NCBI GenBank assembly: GCA_031256825.1
Contig: JAIRPV010000027.1
Coordinates: forward strand, 1 to 64,000
Direction of reading: 5' to 3'
DNA: 64,000 nt
Source of the DNA: Oscillospiraceae bacterium
Lineage (GTDB): Bacteria; Bacillota; Clostridia; Oscillospirales; Acutalibacteraceae
The notes beneath the pieces were generated by a model. It made no database searches, was not told the DNA's origin, and saw only the letters and a list, made by a program, of their open reading frames with translations. Positions 15,634 to 42,720 of this stretch are shown here, piece by piece (within the stretch, counting starts at the first letter, position 1; every line of letters starts with the position of its first letter). The translations under genes and the position numbers were made by a program.

Positions 15634-15760
15634 ATCCCCACATCCTTTCCTCTTATTTTATGCGCGAGGCAGGCGGAAGGATACCTTTGATTTTAAAAAT
15701 GTGGCACGGCGTATTCATCTGCGACTATTTTGACGTCCAAATTTTAATTGCCTAAACTTT

Positions 15761-16120
15761 GTGAGTAGGCCTGTAAGCCGAGTTTTGTCGTTGAAGGCAG
15801 TCATTTATCTAGCAACGCCATTGCTGGCGCTGTCATGCCACCCGTTGAGGAATCCGCCGAGCAAGCGGGCCCTGCCAAGGCAGGTGTTCCCCGGTCGGTG
15901 TTGCTCCGGATAGGGTTTACAGGGCGCTGCGGTTCCCCGCGCGCCGGTGAGCTCTTACCTCGCCTTTCCACCCTTACCTGTTGGAAATCCAACAGGCGGT
16001 ATTTCTCTGTTGCACTTTCCCTAAGGTTGCCCTCGGCGGCCGTTAGCCGTTATCCTGCTCTATGGAGCTCGGACTTTCCTCACAAAATTTGCATTTTGCG
16101 CGATTGCCCAGCCTACTCAC
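15761..16120 (-). ncRNA. rnpB: RNase P RNA (bacterial type A-like)
   Basis: Reverse strand reads GTGAGTAGGCTGGGCAATCGC...GAGGAAAGTCCGAGCTCCATAGAGCAGGATAACGGCTAACGGCCG...CGGCTTACAGGCCTACTCAC; terminal arms pair. Confidence 0.92.
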
Positions 16121-30674: not shown

Positions 30675-30703
30675 TTGACAGCCCGCGCCGAATGTGGTAT
30701 ACT
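30675..30703 (+). promoter_or_regulatory. SigA-type promoter of the aro operon leader
   Basis: TTGACA-17 nt-TATACT. Confidence 0.75.
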
Positions 30704-30731
30704 GGTAGCAATTAGTGAAAAGGAGCAGCAC

Positions 30732-30830
30732 ATGAACCGGATCAGCCCATTCAGCTTTACCCGCTTTAGCAGCTTTGCCTACGGTTGGCAGGGCGTTTGT
30801 TGGTTTGGCTGCAAGGCGGTTCGTGGGTAA
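30732..30830 (+). CDS. Putative aromatic-amino-acid leader peptide MNRISPFSFTRFSSFAYGWQGVCWFGCKAVRG
   Basis: RBS aaaaggagc before ATG; 5 Phe, 2 Trp and 1 Tyr in 32 residues; located between promoter and terminator upstream of the aro operon. Confidence 0.75.
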   Translation: MNRISPFSFTRFSSFAYGWQGVCWFGCKAVRG

Positions 30831-30847
30831 TCCTCACAGAATTAGCT

Positions 30848-30882
30848 CTCCTCCGCAGTCAACCGACTGCGGGGGTTTTTTA
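30848..30882 (+). terminator. Putative attenuator terminator of the aro operon
   Basis: cctccgcagtc-aacc-gactgcggggg followed by TTTTTTATT. Confidence 0.8.
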
Positions 30883-30922
30883 TTGGACAGCAGATTGGTA
30901 AGCAAAGAAAGGGGCGCTCCAC

Positions 30923-31924
30923 ATGATAGTCATCTTAAAACAAAACCACGACCAAAAGCAGCTCGAGGAGCTGCGCGCCTGGCTGGAAGAGCAGGAGATC
31001 AGCATTCAGGTGAACCATGGCGTGCATTCCACGGTGCTCGGGCTGATTGGCGACACCTCGCAGGTGGACTCCGACCTCATCGAGGCGCTGGATATCGTGG
31101 AAGCGGTTAAGCGCGTGCAGGAACCCTATAAGAAGGCGAACCGCAAGTTTCATCCGCAAAATTCCGTTGTTACCGTTGGCGGCGTGCCCGTTGGCGGCGG
31201 CGGCTTTGTTGTGATGGCGGGGCCTTGCTCGGTGGAGTCGCGCGAGCAGCTGTGCGAGGTGGCGCAGGCTGTGAAGGCTTCGGGCGCGCAGATTTTGCGG
31301 GGCGGCGCCTTTAAGCCGCGCACTTCGCCTTATGCCTTTCAAGGCATGCGCGAAAGCGGCATCGACTTGCTGCTCGAGGCGAAAAAGCTCACAGGGTTGC
31401 CGATTGTGACGGAAATCATGGACATTTCGCATCTGGATTCTTTTGCGCAGGTGGATTGTATCCAGGTGGGCGCGCGGAATATGCAGAATTTTGAGCTGCT
31501 CAAGGAACTGGGGCGCAGCAAAACGCCGGTGCTCCTGAAGCGCGGGCTTTCATCCACGATACAGGAATGGCTCATGTCGGCGGAGTACATCATGGCGGGC
31601 GGCAACGAAAACGTGATCCTCTGCGAGCGCGGCATACGGACATTCGAGACCGCCACGCGCAATACCTTTGATATTTCGGCCGTGCCGGTGCTGCGGGAGC
31701 ATTCGCACCTGCCCGTGATTATGGATCCGAGCCACGCGACGGGGGTTGCGCGGTATGTGAAACCGCTGGCCGTTGCGGCGGCGGCCATTGGCGCGGACGG
31801 GCTGATGATTGAGGTGCACAACAACCCCGCAAAGGCGCTGTGCGACGGGCCGCAATCGCTTACGCCGGAGCAGTTCGACGACACGATGCGCAGCGTGAAC
31901 GCCGTGCTGGCGGCACGGAGGTAG
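30923..31924 (+). CDS. aroF: 3-deoxy-7-phosphoheptulonate synthase (DAHP synthase)
   Basis: VMAGPCSVESREQLCEVAQAVKASGAQILRGGAFKPRTSPYAFQG; VGARNMQNFELLKELG; PVIMDPSHATG. Confidence 0.95.
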   Translation: MIVILKQNHDQKQLEELRAWLEEQEISIQVNHGVHSTVLGLIGDTSQVDSDLIEALDIVEAVKRVQEPYKKANRKFHPQNSVVTVGGVPVGGGGFVVMAGPCSVESREQLCEVAQAVKASGAQILRGGAFKPRTSPYAFQGMRESGIDLLLEAKKLTGLPIVTEIMDISHLDSFAQVDCIQVGARNMQNFELLKELGRSKTPVLLKRGLSSTIQEWLMSAEYIMAGGNENVILCERGIRTFETATRNTFDISAVPVLREHSHLPVIMDPSHATGVARYVKPLAVAAAAIGADGLMIEVHNNPAKALCDGPQSLTPEQFDDTMRSVNAVLAARR

Positions 31925-31931
31925 CGCGGCA

Positions 31932-32969
31932 ATGACAAAAGTGGAGGTTCCGCTGGGGGAGCGGGCGTATGACGTCGTGATCGATCCGGGCATTTTGTGT
32001 AAAGCGGCAGAGCTTTACACCTCGGTTATCCCGGGAAAAAAAGCGCTGCTGGTATCCGATCAAACGGTCTATCACCTTTATGGCGCAGGGGTTTCAGCGG
32101 CTTTGGCCGCAGCGGGGATTGAACTGGCCGTTTATACATTCCCGCCGGGGGAGGCAAGTAAATCCCTTTACACCTATGAACAGATCCTGAACGCTGCCGC
32201 CGCGTTTCAGCTGACCAACAGCGACGCGTTCCTTGCGCTGGGCGGGGGTGTGACCGGCGATTTGACAGGATTTGCCGCAGCGACGTATCACCGCGGGATT
32301 CGATTTGTGCAGATGCCGACCACACTGCTGGCGATGGTGGATTCTTCGGTGGGGGGCAAAACAGGGGTGAATCTGGCGGCGGGCAAGAACCTGGCGGGGG
32401 CCTTCTGGCAGCCGCGGCTGGTGCTTTGCGATCCCCTGCTGCTGCGCACGCTCCCGCCGGAGCAATATGCCGACGGGTTGGCGGAATGCCTGAAATATGG
32501 CGTTCTTTGGGACGAGGTGCTGTTTGCGCAGCTGGAGCGGGGCGCGCTGTTTCAGGTGACGGAACGGCAGATTGCGCGATGTGTTGAGCTGAAGCGTGAC
32601 GTGGTGCTGCGCGACGAGCGCGACAAAGGGCAGCGGCAGCTGCTGAACCTTGGCCACACCATCGGCCACGCGATAGAGCAGGCCAGCGGTTTTGCCATTG
32701 GCCACGGCGCAGCGGTTGGCCTGGGCATGCTGATGATTGCCGGGCTGTTTTGCCCGGAAATATCGGGCAGGATCCGCCGCGCGCTGCGGGAGAATGGGCT
32801 GCCGACAGAATGGGATGGATCGAGGGAGGACATCGCCCGCGCGCTTTTGCAGGATAAAAAACGCGCCGGGGATGCGATTGATCTTGTGATTCCTCTTCGC
32901 ATTGGAGCCTGCGAACTGCGGCGGATGCCGATTGGGGCGGTGAAAAATTTGTGGGAGGAGCAGCTATGA
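31932..32969 (+). CDS. aroB: 3-dehydroquinate synthase
   Basis: ALGGGVTGDLTGFAAATYHRGIRFVQMPTTLLAMVDSSVGGKTGVNLAAGKN; LNLGHTIGHAIE. Confidence 0.95.
   Translation: MTKVEVPLGERAYDVVIDPGILCKAAELYTSVIPGKKALLVSDQTVYHLYGAGVSAALAAAGIELAVYTFPPGEASKSLYTYEQILNAAAAFQLTNSDAFLALGGGVTGDLTGFAAATYHRGIRFVQMPTTLLAMVDSSVGGKTGVNLAAGKNLAGAFWQPRLVLCDPLLLRTLPPEQYADGLAECLKYGVLWDEVLFAQLERGALFQVTERQIARCVELKRDVVLRDERDKGQRQLLNLGHTIGHAIEQASGFAIGHGAAVGLGMLMIAGLFCPEISGRIRRALRENGLPTEWDGSREDIARALLQDKKRAGDAIDLVIPLRIGACELRRMPIGAVKNLWEEQL
31998..32019. promoter_or_regulatory. 22-bp bipartite palindrome (motif instance 1, inside aroB)
   Basis: TGTAAAG-CGGCAGAG-CTTTACA. Confidence 0.6.
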
Positions 32970-34099
32970 CGACACGTTTGCGCGCTAGCACACTGTCGGG
33001 AGAAATCGATGCGCTCCCGTCTAAGTATGACATGCACCGCCTGATGATTGCGGCCCATTTGGCGGGAATGGATGTCACAAGTTGGCCAACGCCGTCGGAC
33101 GACATTGCCGCGACGCGGGATTGTTTGCTATCAAATGACAGAAAAAATTGCCGCGAAAGCGGTTCTACGCTGCGATTTTTGCTGCCTGTCATGGCCGCGC
33201 TTGACAAGGCCTGCACCTTTACAGGGACGGGGCGGCTGCCCAAAAGGCCCATAGAACCGCTGATTGCGCTATTGCGCGCCCATGGCTGCGAAGTCAGCGC
33301 GACAAGTGTTCCGCTTGTCATTCGGGGGAAATTGCGCCCGGGTCGGTTTGAACTGCCGGGGAATATCAGTTCGCAGTTTGTGACAGGCCTTCTCTTTGCG
33401 CTGCCGTTATTGGAAGACGCGAGCGAAATTGTGCTGACCAGCCCTCTGGAGTCGGCAGGATATGTGGAAATGACGCTGTGCACGCTGCGAAAATTCGGGA
33501 TTATTGTTGAAATAACGAGAAACGGGTACCGAATCGAGCCGCAGCGCTACCGCCCGACGGACGCGACGCAACCGGAGGGGGACTGGTCGAACGCGGCGTT
33601 TTGGTTGGCGGCAGGGGTGAATGTGACAGGATTAAACGAGAATTCGCCGCAACCCGATCGAGAAATACAACATTTATTGCGGCAAATGGGCTTTCCGCGG
33701 AGGGGAATCGTTATGGATGCGGCGCAGTGCCCGGATTTGGCGCCGCTGATGGCGGCGATTATGGCTTCGGCGCAGGGCGAAAGCCGAATCATCCACGCGG
33801 CGCGGCTGCGGCTGAAAGAGAGCGATCGGTTGCACGCAATGGCGGAAAATCTCAACGCGCTGGGCGGAAATGTGACAGAACTGCCCGACGGATTGGTGAT
33901 TCAGGGACGGCAATTGAGGGGCGGCGTTGTGGAAAGTTTCAACGATCATCGCGTTGCAATGGCGATGGCGATTGCTGCGCTATCTTGCGAAGGCGCGGTG
34001 ACGCTGCGTGGCGCTGAAGCGGTGCAAAAGAGTTATCCGCGATTTTGGGAAGATTATCAACGACTAGGAGGCCGATATGAGCTCGAGATTTGGGAATAA
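32966..34099 (+). CDS. aroA: 3-phosphoshikimate 1-carboxyvinyltransferase (EPSP synthase)
   Basis: SGSTLRFLLPVMAA; FTGTGRLPKRPIEPL; RLKESDRLHAMAENL; SFNDHRVAMAMAIA; ATGA overlap with aroB. Confidence 0.94.
   Translation: MTTRLRASTLSGEIDALPSKYDMHRLMIAAHLAGMDVTSWPTPSDDIAATRDCLLSNDRKNCRESGSTLRFLLPVMAALDKACTFTGTGRLPKRPIEPLIALLRAHGCEVSATSVPLVIRGKLRPGRFELPGNISSQFVTGLLFALPLLEDASEIVLTSPLESAGYVEMTLCTLRKFGIIVEITRNGYRIEPQRYRPTDATQPEGDWSNAAFWLAAGVNVTGLNENSPQPDREIQHLLRQMGFPRRGIVMDAAQCPDLAPLMAAIMASAQGESRIIHAARLRLKESDRLHAMAENLNALGGNVTELPDGLVIQGRQLRGGVVESFNDHRVAMAMAIAALSCEGAVTLRGAEAVQKSYPRFWEDYQRLGGRYELEIWE
33202..33223. promoter_or_regulatory. Bipartite motif instance 2 (inside aroA, one divergent half-site)
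   Basis: TGACAAG-GCCTGCAC-CTTTACA. Confidence 0.45.
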
Positions 34100-35054
34100 T
34101 GTCACATTTTCGGTGTTTGGGCAGTCGCATTCCGAGGCAATTGGCGTTGTGATCGACGGCTTGCCTGCCGGGGAGGCCATCGATATGCAGCAGGTGCAGG
34201 CGTTCATGGACCGGCGCGCGCCGGGGAACCGCCCGAGCGACACGCCGCGCCGCGAAGCGGATGTGCCGCGGGTGCTGTCCGGCCTGGTGCACCATGTTAC
34301 GTGCGGCGCGCCGCTGTGCGCGGTGATCCAAAACACGGACACCCATCCAGAGGACTACGAAAAATTGCGGGACATCCCGCGGCCGGGGCATGCGGATTAC
34401 CCGTTGCGGGTCAAATTTCAGGGATTTCAGGATATCCGGGGGGGAGGGCACGCCTCCGGGCGGCTGACGGCCCCGCTTTGCTTTGCCGGGGCGGTTTGCG
34501 CGCAGATTTTGGCGCGTAAAGGGATTGAACTTGTCGCGCGAATTGTTGAAATGGGAGATGTAAAGGCCGCGGCCTTTACAGGGGATTCGGTGGGCGGCGT
34601 GATTGAGTGCGAGGCGCGGGGGCTGCCTGCCGGATTGGGCGAGCCGATGTTCGGGGGGGTGGAAAATCGGCTGGCAGCGGCAATTTTTGGGATACCGGCG
34701 GTTCGCGGGATCGAATTTGGTGCGGGATTTGCGGCGGCGCGAATGAAAGGATCAGAGCACAACGACGCGTATCGGCTGGAAGGCGAGCAGGTGCGGACCG
34801 CAACCAACCACCATGGCGGCGTGCTGGGAGGCGTTACGACAGGCATGCCGCTGGTGTTTCGAATCGCGATCAAGCCGACGCCGTCGATTGCGCGGACACA
34901 GACGACCGTGGATTTTGCGCGGAACCGGGAAACGGAGCTGGCCGTCGGCGGGCGGCATGACGTGTGCATTGTGCCGCGCGTGGTGCCGGTGGCGGAGGCT
35001 GTGACGGCATGCGTTTTGCTGGATTTGCTTTTGGATGCGAAAGGAGTATTTTGA
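34077..35054 (+). CDS. aroC: Chorismate synthase
   Basis: VTFSVFGQSHSEAIGVVIDGLPAG; RRAPGNRPSDTPRREAD; GGGHASGRLTAPLCFAGA; TNHHGGVLGGVTTGMPLVFRIAIKPTPSI. Confidence 0.95.
   Translation: MSSRFGNNVTFSVFGQSHSEAIGVVIDGLPAGEAIDMQQVQAFMDRRAPGNRPSDTPRREADVPRVLSGLVHHVTCGAPLCAVIQNTDTHPEDYEKLRDIPRPGHADYPLRVKFQGFQDIRGGGHASGRLTAPLCFAGAVCAQILARKGIELVARIVEMGDVKAAAFTGDSVGGVIECEARGLPAGLGEPMFGGVENRLAAAIFGIPAVRGIEFGAGFAAARMKGSEHNDAYRLEGEQVRTATNHHGGVLGGVTTGMPLVFRIAIKPTPSIARTQTTVDFARNRETELAVGGRHDVCIVPRVVPVAEAVTACVLLDLLLDAKGVF
34559..34580. promoter_or_regulatory. 22-bp bipartite palindrome (motif instance 3, inside aroC; perfect 22-bp palindrome)
   Basis: TGTAAAG-GCCGCGGC-CTTTACA. Confidence 0.65.
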
Positions 35055-36208
35055 TGCCGCTGGATGAAATTCGACAGGAAATCGACGCGATCGACAATGA
35101 ACTTGCTTTGCTGTTTCAGCGCCGTATGGCGTTAACAGGCGAAGTTGCCCGGGAAAAGAGACAGTCTGGCGGGCCGATTTTGCGGCGCGAGCGGGAAGAA
35201 GCAATCCTGGAGCGCCTTGGCGCGGGCATGCCGTTGACGACAAAATCGGCGCTGAATCAACTTTATTCGACCATATTCCGCTTGAGCCGCGGGCGGCAGA
35301 TGTCGCTGATGGACGGGGAAGAATGTGGGATACGGCAGGAAATTGCGGCGGCGCGGGAGCGCGGGAGCGCGGGATTTCCCGGCGTGGGCAGCGTAGCGTG
35401 CCAGGGGATTCGTGGAGCATATTCACATATTGCGGCGCAGCAACTGTTTTCTGAGCCGAATGTGGTGTTTCTTCGCACTTTTGACGCTGTTTTTCGCGCA
35501 GTAGAATGCGGACTTTGCCGCTATGGCGTGTTACCGATCGAAAACAGCACCTATGGCAGCGTGACGCAGGTCTATGACCTGTTAAAGCGCCACAGCTGCT
35601 CGATCGTGCGCGCGCTGCGGCTGCCCATTGATCATTGTCTGCTGAGCCGCGCTAAATTCCTAAAGGATGTAAAAGAAATCTATTCGCACGAGCAGGCTCT
35701 TGGGCAATGTGCTGAATTTTTGGAAAAATTAGGGAAGCATGTGGCCATCACGGTGTGCGAAAACACCGCCGTAGCGGCGCGCATGGCAGCGGAATCGGGC
35801 AGGGAAGACGTGGCGGCGATTTCATCGGAGGAATGCGCGGAACTTTACGGGTTGCGCGTGCTAAAGCGGAGCATTCAACGGGAAGCGCGCAATGAGACGC
35901 GGTTTATCTGCATTGCGCGGCAGCCGGAGCTGTTTCCCGAGGCAAATCGATGCAGCGTTCTGTTGTCATTACAACATCGACCGGGTTCATTGGCCGAACT
36001 GCTGCAATTGCCCGCCGCTTTGGGGATTAATCTCACAAAACTGGAGAATCGCCCGGCGCCGGGCCGTGAGTTTGAGTTTTTATTTTATCTTGATTTGGAG
36101 TGTGACGCGTCACAGCCTGAAACTGTCGATTTTCTGGAGCGCATGGCACAACTGAGCGAGGCGTTCACATTTTTGGGCAGTTACCGAGAAATGGGAGGGA
36201 TTCTATGA
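35054..36208 (+). CDS. pheA: Bifunctional chorismate mutase/prephenate dehydratase
   Basis: N-terminal LDEIRQEIDAIDNELALLFQRRM; GIRGAYSHIAA; YGVLPIENSTYGSV; ACT region LSLQHRPGSLAELLQ. Confidence 0.93.
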   Translation: MPLDEIRQEIDAIDNELALLFQRRMALTGEVAREKRQSGGPILRREREEAILERLGAGMPLTTKSALNQLYSTIFRLSRGRQMSLMDGEECGIRQEIAAARERGSAGFPGVGSVACQGIRGAYSHIAAQQLFSEPNVVFLRTFDAVFRAVECGLCRYGVLPIENSTYGSVTQVYDLLKRHSCSIVRALRLPIDHCLLSRAKFLKDVKEIYSHEQALGQCAEFLEKLGKHVAITVCENTAVAARMAAESGREDVAAISSEECAELYGLRVLKRSIQREARNETRFICIARQPELFPEANRCSVLLSLQHRPGSLAELLQLPAALGINLTKLENRPAPGREFEFLFYLDLECDASQPETVDFLERMAQLSEAFTFLGSYREMGGIL

Positions 36209-36675
36209 CGATATCAGTCGAAATTGCGCGAAAAAGAGGGCTGCGAAAGCTAATTGCCATGCAACGCGCGGCGTTCCGGCCGCTTTATCAGCTTTACCGC
36301 GATGAAGGAAGCCCTTATTTGCGCGGGCGAAAAGAACACGCTGAATGGCTGAAGCGAACGGATCGTTATGTTTATCAGATTTGCGCGGATGGCAAGTGTT
36401 GCGGCGGAATTGTTGCATTTGAACGAGAGAATGGGGTATTTTATCTGGCGCGTTTGTATATTTTGCCGAATATGCAGGGCAAAGGCGTTGGCGCGCAAGC
36501 AATTGCCCTGTTGGAAGCGGAGCTGCCGCAGGCGCGCAAGTGGAGCGTGGATTTCCCGGCGGATCAGCCGCAGAACAGGCGCTGTTATGAGAAGGCGGGG
36601 TACCGCGACACAGGGCTGACAAGGCAAATCAATGAACGATTGACTTTGGCGATTTACGAGAAAGAAGTGAACTGA
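36205..36675 (+). CDS. GNAT family N-acetyltransferase
   Basis: ARLYILPNMQGKGVGAQAIALLEAELP; NRRCYEKAGYRDTG. Confidence 0.85.
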   Translation: MTISVEIARKRGLRKLIAMQRAAFRPLYQLYRDEGSPYLRGRKEHAEWLKRTDRYVYQICADGKCCGGIVAFERENGVFYLARLYILPNMQGKGVGAQAIALLEAELPQARKWSVDFPADQPQNRRCYEKAGYRDTGLTRQINERLTLAIYEKEVN

Positions 36676-37896
36676 ATGCAATACGCTTTAATTGGCGAAC
36701 ATCTGGGGCACAGTTATTCGCCGGAAATTCACAAAATGATTGGGGGCTATGACTATGCGCTGGCGCCAATGCCGCCGGAAGCGTTGCCTGAGTTTTTTGC
36801 GCGGCGGGATTTTCAGGGAATTAATGTGACGATTCCTTACAAAAAAGCGGTCATGCCCTTTTGCGACACCCTTGGGGAAACCGCAAAACGCGTTGGCAGT
36901 GTGAATACAATTCTCAAAAGGGCCGATGGCAGCCTGTTTGGAGACAACACCGACCCGGCGGGCTTTTGTTTTATGCTGCAAAGCGCTAATATTTCGATGG
37001 AGAGCCGCCATGTGCTGGTTTTGGGCGGAGGCGGGGCTTCGCTAACGGTGCAGCTTGCTGCTTCGGAGGCTCGGGCGGCAAGCGTTTCAGTGGCAGAATT
37101 GGGCGGCGCGTTGAATTACGAAAATATTTATGAGGCATGCGCACAGGCGCAGGTGATCATCAACGCAACGCCTGTGGGGATGTTCCCCAAAACAGACGCG
37201 AAACTTGTCGATTTGGAACGATTTCCGCGCTGTGAAGCGGTAGCGGATTTGATCTACAACCCGCTGCGCACCAAATTGTTGCAGCAAGCGAAAGCGCTTG
37301 GCCTACGGCACGTGAATGGGTTGGGCATGCTGGTTGCGCAGGCGGCGGCGGCCGCCGAGATCTTTACAGGAATCCGACAGGGGGCAGAAAAAATTGACGA
37401 AATATATCGAAAATTATATAATAAAACCGAAAATTGGGTTATTATCGGCATGCCGGGGGCGGGCAAGAGCACGGTTGGAACCGAGTTGGCGCGGCGGAGC
37501 GGCCGGAAATTTATTGATGTGGACTGGGAAATTGAGCGGCGCGCGGGGCTTTCTTGCGGGGAGATCATCACACAGCGGGGCGAAGAACAATTTCGCGCGC
37601 TGGAGTGTGAAGTTGTGCGGGAGCTGGGCGCGCGAACCGGTTTGGTGATTGCGACGGGGGGCGGCACAGTGTTAAAGGATGAAAATGTTTTTGCGCTGCG
37701 GCAAAACGGGAAGCTGCTCTGGATTCGGCGCGGCGCTGACCGGCTTGCCACGTTTGAGCGGCCGCTTTCGAAAAATCTGCGGGAGATGGAGCAAACGCGG
37801 CGGCCTTTTTATGAAAAGGCGGCGGATGCGACAATTTTACACGATGAAAATTGGGAGCGTTTGCAACTGCGGGCGTGGGAGGTGTTTCACGCATGA
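36676..37896 (+). CDS. Shikimate dehydrogenase-shikimate kinase fusion protein
   Basis: AroE: LIGEHLGHSYSPEIHKMIG, GINVTIPYKKAVMPF, DNTDPAGF; AroK: IIGMPGAGKSTVGTELARRSGRKFIDVDWEIE, ATGGGTVL. Confidence 0.93.
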   Translation: MQYALIGEHLGHSYSPEIHKMIGGYDYALAPMPPEALPEFFARRDFQGINVTIPYKKAVMPFCDTLGETAKRVGSVNTILKRADGSLFGDNTDPAGFCFMLQSANISMESRHVLVLGGGGASLTVQLAASEARAASVSVAELGGALNYENIYEACAQAQVIINATPVGMFPKTDAKLVDLERFPRCEAVADLIYNPLRTKLLQQAKALGLRHVNGLGMLVAQAAAAAEIFTGIRQGAEKIDEIYRKLYNKTENWVIIGMPGAGKSTVGTELARRSGRKFIDVDWEIERRAGLSCGEIITQRGEEQFRALECEVVRELGARTGLVIATGGGTVLKDENVFALRQNGKLLWIRRGADRLATFERPLSKNLREMEQTRRPFYEKAADATILHDENWERLQLRAWEVFHA

Positions 37897-38318
37897 AAGT
37901 GATGGTGATCAACGGGCCGAACCTGAATCTGCTGGGCATCCGCGAGCCGGAGATCTATGGCAGCGGAAGCTATGCCGCGCTGGCGCGATACATTGAAGGA
38001 GCGGCGGCGGATTTGGGGATCGAGGTTTTGGTGCGGCAATCGAACCACGAAGGGGAAATTGTCACATGGATTCAGGAATGCTATGGCGCTGTGGACGCGA
38101 TTGTCATCAATCCGGCGGCGTATACGCACACAAGCGTGGCGATTTTGGATGCGCTGAAGGCGGTTGCGCTGCCCGCTGTGGAGGTGCACCTGAGCGACGT
38201 GCAGACGCGGGAGGAGTTTCGCAGAACGTCTTACAGCGCGCTGGCCTGCAAAAAAGTGATTGCGGGGCAGGGATTCGATGGGTACCGGATGGCGCTGGAG
38301 TTCCTTGTAAAGGGATAG
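37893..38318 (+). CDS. aroQ: Type II 3-dehydroquinate dehydratase
   Basis: MVINGPNLNLLGIREPEIYG; RQSNHEGEIVTWIQE; VINPAAYTHTSVAILDAL; PAVEVHLSDVQTREEFR. Confidence 0.94.
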   Translation: MKVMVINGPNLNLLGIREPEIYGSGSYAALARYIEGAAADLGIEVLVRQSNHEGEIVTWIQECYGAVDAIVINPAAYTHTSVAILDALKAVALPAVEVHLSDVQTREEFRRTSYSALACKKVIAGQGFDGYRMALEFLVKG

Positions 38319-42488: not shown

Positions 42489-42517
42489 TTGCATTTCCCA
42501 AAATCCTGTGTTATAAT
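42489..42517 (+). promoter_or_regulatory. SigA-type promoter of the riboswitch operon
   Basis: TTGCAT-17 nt-TATAAT. Confidence 0.65.
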
Positions 42518-42524
42518 AGAGATG

Positions 42525-42720
42525 TTGCATGGTGCGCCCTCGGGCGCTAAGAGGGAACCCGGTGCGAATCCGGGGCAGCTCACATCTACTGTTATCAGCT
42601 ACGGCTTGCCCACGCGCGCGGCCATTGGGGTTCATGCCCCGAGAAGGCGGGCAAGCCGGTTTGAACTGAAAGCCAGGAAACCTGCCAAGCAACGGTGCAA
42701 CCTTTCGGTGAGGAAAGCGC
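42525..42720 (+). promoter_or_regulatory. Cobalamin riboswitch
   Basis: aagaGGGAAcccGGTGCGAATCCGGGGCAGCtcaC core and B12-box-like aaAGCCAGGAAACCTGCC. Confidence 0.88.

Follow-up and report, generated by a model that had tools for sequence, protein, structure and literature searches.

A probable Phe/Tyr-responsive leader peptide attenuator upstream of the aroF operon in an Oscillospiraceae bacterium and its relatives in Clostridia

How is the aro/pheA operon of this Oscillospiraceae bacterium controlled? In the window, i.e. the whole stretch of 64,000 nucleotides that we analysed, a near-perfect SigA promoter is followed in turn by a Shine-Dalgarno sequence, a short open reading frame, a strong intrinsic terminator and aroF. 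The original prediction had described this arrangement (promoter, ribosome-binding site, a 32-residue aromatic-rich ORF, terminator, aroF), and all of its elements can be read directly in the DNA. Translation of positions 30732-30830 yields the leader peptide MNRISPFSFTRFSSFAYGWQGVCWFGCKAVRG, which contains five Phe, one Tyr and two Trp residues. The features of the locus are:

30675..30703, + strand: SigA-type promoter, TTGACA-17-TATACT with an extended TG; 11/12 consensus matches, 17-nt spacer
30720..30725, + strand: Shine-Dalgarno sequence AAGGAG, 6 nt 5′ of the leader ATG, read from the sequence
30732..30830, + strand: leader peptide ORF, 32 codons plus TAA (30828-30830), kept in relatives
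30745..30779, + strand: segment 1, 5′ arm of the 1:2 hairpin (minimum free energy pairs, 1:2 covariation)
30780..30788, + strand: codons for Tyr (30780) and Trp (30786), which occupy the hairpin loop and the beginning of the 3′ arm; the last permissive aromatic codons
30787..30817, + strand: 3′ arm of the 1:2 hairpin, including segment 2 (minimum free energy pairs, genus-level stem)
30802..30812, + strand: segment 2, the antiterminator strand GGUUUGGCUGC (folds with the ribosome at each codon, permutation test)
30850..30860, + strand: segment 3, 5′ arm of the terminator; 30855-30864 (end of the arm plus loop) pairs with segment 2
30865..30881, + strand: segment 4, 3′ arm of the terminator (30865-30875) and T6 tract (30876-30881)
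30923..31924, + strand: aroF, DAHP synthase (DAHP_synth_1 and a ferredoxin-like domain)
31932..38318, + strand: rest of the operon: aroB, aroA, aroC, pheA, GNAT, aroE-aroK fusion, aroQ

The genes from aroF to aroQ follow each other closely, overlapping or separated by only a few bases, and are probably carried on a single transcript; pheA encodes chorismate mutase-prephenate dehydratase. Shikimate dehydrogenase (aroE) and shikimate kinase (aroK) are fused in one gene (36676-37896), and a GNAT acetyltransferase gene (36205-36675) is inserted between pheA and this fusion. Elsewhere, the window carries a Cobalamin riboswitch (42513-42703) and a class A RNase P RNA (15758-16119, − strand).

The RNA ahead of aroF can adopt competing structures. 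The terminator (30850-30875) consists of an 11-bp stem with an AACC loop, followed by T6, and the 180-nt leader as a whole is more stable than each of its 200 dinucleotide shuffles (200/200, z −4.0). In the minimum free energy fold without a ribosome, 30745-30779 pairs with 30787-30817 and conceals segment 2 (30802-30811 in this fold), the very stretch that pairs with the terminator arm and loop in the best antiterminator fold (30802-30812 with 30855-30864, i.e. GCAGUC plus the loop AACC). The original prediction, which placed the antiterminator strand at 30807-30816, was therefore nearly right, though displaced by a few positions from this best fold. Phe codons at 30750, 30756, 30765 and 30774 lie in segment 1, and segment 2 shares bases with the Trp 30801 and Phe 30804 codons. 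The locus thus combines an aromatic leader ORF, an intrinsic terminator before the first gene and mutually exclusive 1:2, 2:3 and 3:4 pairings, the marks of an attenuator, and we consider it very probable, on the strength of the sequence comparisons described below, that a ribosome-mediated transcription attenuator controls the aro/pheA operon.

Transcription would start near 30710, as judged from the promoter, and a ribosome would then translate the leader. When Phe (and Tyr) are plentiful, the ribosome would reach the stop codon and cover segment 2; with no ribosome on the RNA, segment 2 would be held by segment 1. In either case arm 3 would be left free for arm 4, and transcription would terminate at 30876-30881. 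A shortage of charged tRNA-Phe or tRNA-Tyr would stall the ribosome inside arm 1 and block the 1:2 hairpin; segment 2 would then pair with arm 3 and the loop ahead of the synthesis of arm 4, and the polymerase would read through into aroF-aroQ.

We took AroF orthologues from the genus, the family and the order and scanned the 350-400 bp upstream for short ORFs with a Shine-Dalgarno sequence, our main threshold being an ATG-initiated ORF with a Shine-Dalgarno sequence and at least five F/W/Y within 12 residues. An aromatic leader ORF was present in 111 of the 129 order-level aroF upstream regions, as compared to 1.6% of dinucleotide shuffles and 4/129 regions on the reverse strand at the same threshold (at least five in 12), bearing in mind that the compared sequences share kinship and that this and the other counts over relatives are therefore not independent trials. 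With the threshold raised to eight aromatics, 55 regions still passed, versus 0/2580 shuffles. Approximately 14% of the order-level regions lack an aromatic ORF at the main threshold, some of them because aroF lies inside a transcription unit or the contig breaks off; by a hand tally, roughly 20 families of the order were sampled and about 18 of them include leader-positive regions. Among named records the leader precedes aroF in 59/78 (e.g. Angelakisella, Yanshouia, Emergencia and Ruminococcus), and elsewhere in the class, outside the order, it is found at 19/27 class-level loci and about 13/20 more distant ones, the named-record and class-level samples being biased towards close AroF relatives and including some where the leader is absent.

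The flanking signals are kept as well. An automatic search detected a hairpin with a T tract 3′ of the ORF in 107/115 leaders, and at least one of the eight that it missed (L004) has a terminator by eye; a SigA-like promoter (at least 10/12) lies upstream of 79/115 relative leaders, versus 2% of shuffles. Two loci deserve separate mention. In L181, from a MAG assigned to Treponemataceae, an aromatic leader MTFTAYYNTFYFYSFYYFTNSRG lies approximately 181 bp before aroF; the bin is labelled spirochaete, and the finding reflects either transfer or misbinning. At G343:C1:2072667-2075213 two aroF genes stand back to back in divergent orientation, the gap between them being L246.

Do the alternative pairings co-vary across the order? 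We carried out a permutation test on 95 leaders, in which segment 1 ran from the ATG to the end of the aromatic cluster, segment 2 was the stretch after the cluster, and segment 3 comprised the last 11 nt of the terminator 5′ arm plus 4 nt of the loop. Cognate 2:3 pairs averaged −13.50 kcal/mol, compared with −10.77 (sd 0.25) for permuted pairs, and cognate 1:2 pairs −14.51 versus −10.94 (sd 0.28), the segment-2 stretch for the latter having been picked by its pairing with 3 and not with 1; none of 5000 permutations was as good in either case. The gains of cognate over permuted, 2.7 kcal/mol for 2:3 and 3.6 for 1:2, amount to approximately 11 and 13 standard deviations. The control pairing 1:3 showed no effect in the same 95 leaders (−8.20 cognate, −8.18 permuted), a result that speaks against base composition as the source of the 1:2 and 2:3 gains. 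An initial duplex test over the whole leader, in which segment 2 had no set limits, gave a weak signal for that reason (31/96 at p ≤ 0.05).

Individual leaders illustrate how the 2:3 helix changes and still matches: GUGUUGCCGUGA pairs with CCGCGGUGACAA in L035, GGCUGCA with UGCAGCC in L010, and GGGCUUUGUGC with GCACGAAGCUC in L092. Within the genus alignment, 95% of cells are paired in the stem 30772-30779/30787-30794, three of whose pairs show compensatory changes, as do four pairs of the terminator; together the genus-level stems have seven such pairs, versus 2.9 in shuffles. The 2:3 helix itself is mostly invariant within the genus, where shuffle controls were modest, and is therefore little informative there; its support comes from the order-wide test. 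The ORF, the terminator, the 1:2 hairpin and the antiterminator are thus conserved and co-varying in relatives, which supports the classical ribosome-mediated attenuation put forward in the original prediction. That prediction had named a lack of conservation of the ORF or the alternative structure as grounds for rejecting it, and our comparison showed the opposite. Small ORFs are common, and one could suppose a chance or protein-coding small ORF beside an ordinary constitutive terminator with no switching, but since this leaves both the enrichment over shuffles and the co-varying 1:2 and 2:3 pairings without a reason, we regard it as highly improbable.

Could a T-box, TRAP or a metabolite riboswitch govern the operon instead? 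T-boxes do occur in this genome (L031-L034; G000 contigs C8, C7, C37 and C33), upstream of leuA, a TrpB-like gene, trpE and trpD, with specifiers, read from alignments, of UGG for trpE, trpD and the TrpB-like gene and CUC for leuA. A T-box upstream of aroF was rejected, the matches to RF00230 lying elsewhere in the genome, and so was TRAP control: the genome lacks PF02081, the TRAP gene, and the site has no run of KAG repeats. Rfam searches of the site, at gathering as well as permissive thresholds, returned chance-level weak matches only and no amino acid leader family (Phe_leader, Trp_leader); over 20 relatives, the sole match above gathering was an unrelated tRNA. With no gathering-level match at the site, control by such an element is barely conceivable.

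The leader is kept in two different ways along its length. The aromatic run uses both codons of Phe and of Tyr (TTT 517/TTC 92, TAT 195/TAC 187), and we conclude that it is maintained as peptide. The antiterminator core TTGCTG[CT][AG] occurs in 30/188 leaders versus 1.5 expected, is distributed across the reading frames as 11/11/8 and falls inside ORFs in 16 cases and after stops in 14; its presence in all frames, inside and past the ORFs, indicates that the 3′ part is kept as RNA. These patterns also bear on nascent-peptide arrest, whereby the aromatic peptide would stall the ribosome upon binding a free aromatic compound, as in TnaC. The peptide is hydrophobic and some stretches are alike across families, but length, residue order and C-terminus vary widely, the C-terminal letters that recur are the RNA motif translated in its three frames, and runs of a single residue class fit codon starvation; we therefore consider arrest very unlikely, and attenuation by codon starvation remains our preferred reading.

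Which codons would exert the control? We modelled the ribosome as a fixed 13-nt shield beyond the A-site codon. Pairing of arm 3 with upstream RNA averaged 0.76 with the A site on aromatic codons, 0.67 on other codons, 0.43 with the ribosome at the stop and 0.55 without a ribosome, values to be read with the understanding that more masking reduces pairing by construction. Looking at individual leaders, permissiveness tends to be lost just past the aromatic run. In the window, a modelled ribosome at Phe7 to Trp19 permits the antiterminator, while one at Trp24 or the stop does not; from approximately codon 22 onward, including Trp24-Phe25, the ribosome covers segment 2. The folding model thus agrees with attenuation: in it, a stall on the control codons frees segment 2, and a ribosome at the stop covers it. 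The codons predicted to exert control are those for Phe at 30750-30776 and Tyr at 30780, with Trp 30786 as the furthest candidate. Codons 30801-30806 (Trp-Phe), hinted at as the sensor in the original prediction, directly adjoin segment 2; a ribosome positioned on them would mask that segment, which excludes them from a control role and corrects the hint.

The order-wide leader is, judging by its codons, a Phe/Tyr sensor with Trp at background. The mean leader has 5.3 Phe, 3.3 Tyr and 0.26 Trp per 31 residues, F and Y making up 17.9% and 11.2% of residues at the order level. Joint sensing of Phe, Trp and Tyr, as initially suggested, therefore finds partial support, order-wide for Phe and Tyr; Trp is found in 17/105 leaders outside the genus, i.e. 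at background, versus 10/10 within it (Fisher p 1e-7), so that additional Trp sensing by the genus leaders is possible. As a refinement of the attenuator explanation rather than an exclusive rival, Trp may have joined an ancestral Phe/Tyr sensor in the genus, such that the same attenuator senses all three aromatics and protects the common shikimate pathway. Besides the enrichment itself, L006 and L007, which lack the usual Trp before the hairpin 3′ arm, carry another one (W9), and those early Trp codons that have a computed value are permissive in the folding model. However, in about 6/10 genus leaders a Trp codon lies in TGGCA, a conserved sequence that forms the lower stem's 3′ arm and in which RNA pairing could maintain the codon and explain part of the signal; the ten leaders represent one lineage, and trpE, trpD and the TrpB-like gene of the same genome already have T-boxes with a UGG specifier. 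We hold three-aromatic sensing to be a tentative proposition, with the balance tilting slightly against it. We also checked tyrA of the same genome for a similar leader; none was seen, and tyrA lies directly behind another gene.

The mechanism is of a known kind (the classical model is given in PMC1183508); what is new is its spread across Clostridia. As in the pheA and trp leaders of E. coli and Salmonella, 1:2, 2:3 and 3:4 pairings, control codons in arm 1 and a terminator before the first structural gene are found, but the leader in the window would control the whole common pathway plus pheA and mixes Tyr with Phe codons, and the lack of an Rfam match means that no sequence relation to those leaders is detectable. 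The original prediction held leader-peptide attenuation to be notable in a Firmicute; it is unusual, yet precedents exist (PMC2965389, PMC9413887, PMC5794164, PMC8632094). The nearest published element is uORFC-13-1, with 24 representatives in Acholeplasma and environmental sequences only, for which ribosome attenuation was proposed (PMC8632094). Like our leaders, it lies upstream of aroF and has a promoter and a uORF with Phe codons (at least one) immediately followed by an intrinsic terminator; compared with its text description, the Clostridia leaders differ in their long Phe/Tyr runs and tested 1:2 and 2:3 pairing. His leader-peptide attenuators, likewise ribosome-mediated and partly replacing T-boxes, are known in Bacillus, Peptostreptococcaceae and Erysipelotrichales (PMC2965389, PMC9413887) but concern another amino acid, other genes and smaller groups. 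The Leu-rich attenuator peptide of S. aureus ilv-leu, which has genetic support (PMC5794164), also controls a biosynthetic operon in a Firmicute but acts on the branched-chain pathway in a single lineage. The T-boxes of trpE, trpD, the TrpB-like gene and leuA share starvation-triggered antitermination of amino acid genes with the proposed aroF attenuator but sense uncharged tRNA directly, without a leader ORF.

The Clostridia aroF leader is absent from Rfam and from the literature that we searched, although a prior mention is possible, e.g. in subscription literature; a comparative survey of attenuators exists (Lopatovskaya et al. 2010, as cited in PMC4833913). We lean towards the view, by a narrow margin over even chances, that the leader represents an ancestral, class-wide device by which Clostridia attenuate the gene for entry into the shikimate pathway in response to Phe and Tyr, and that certain lineages acquired Trp codons; it would then have been overlooked because the RNA is short and fast-evolving.

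With this finding, a very large group of bacteria living in gut and rumen would have an assigned control device for their shikimate pathway, and the response to each aromatic amino acid would become predictable from the leader codons. Since the attenuator needs a ribosome close behind the polymerase, it bears on transcription-translation coupling in Clostridia. In B. subtilis, transcription outruns translation (uncoupling). If the attenuator is indeed ancestral and class-wide, its wide retention would imply that in Clostridia, unlike in B. subtilis, ribosomes match the pace of RNA polymerase. The coupling question is treated in a review (PMC7858274). Finally, one genome would hold two starvation sensors, a leader peptide for the common and Phe branch and T-boxes for the Trp branch, which would offer a clean natural comparison.
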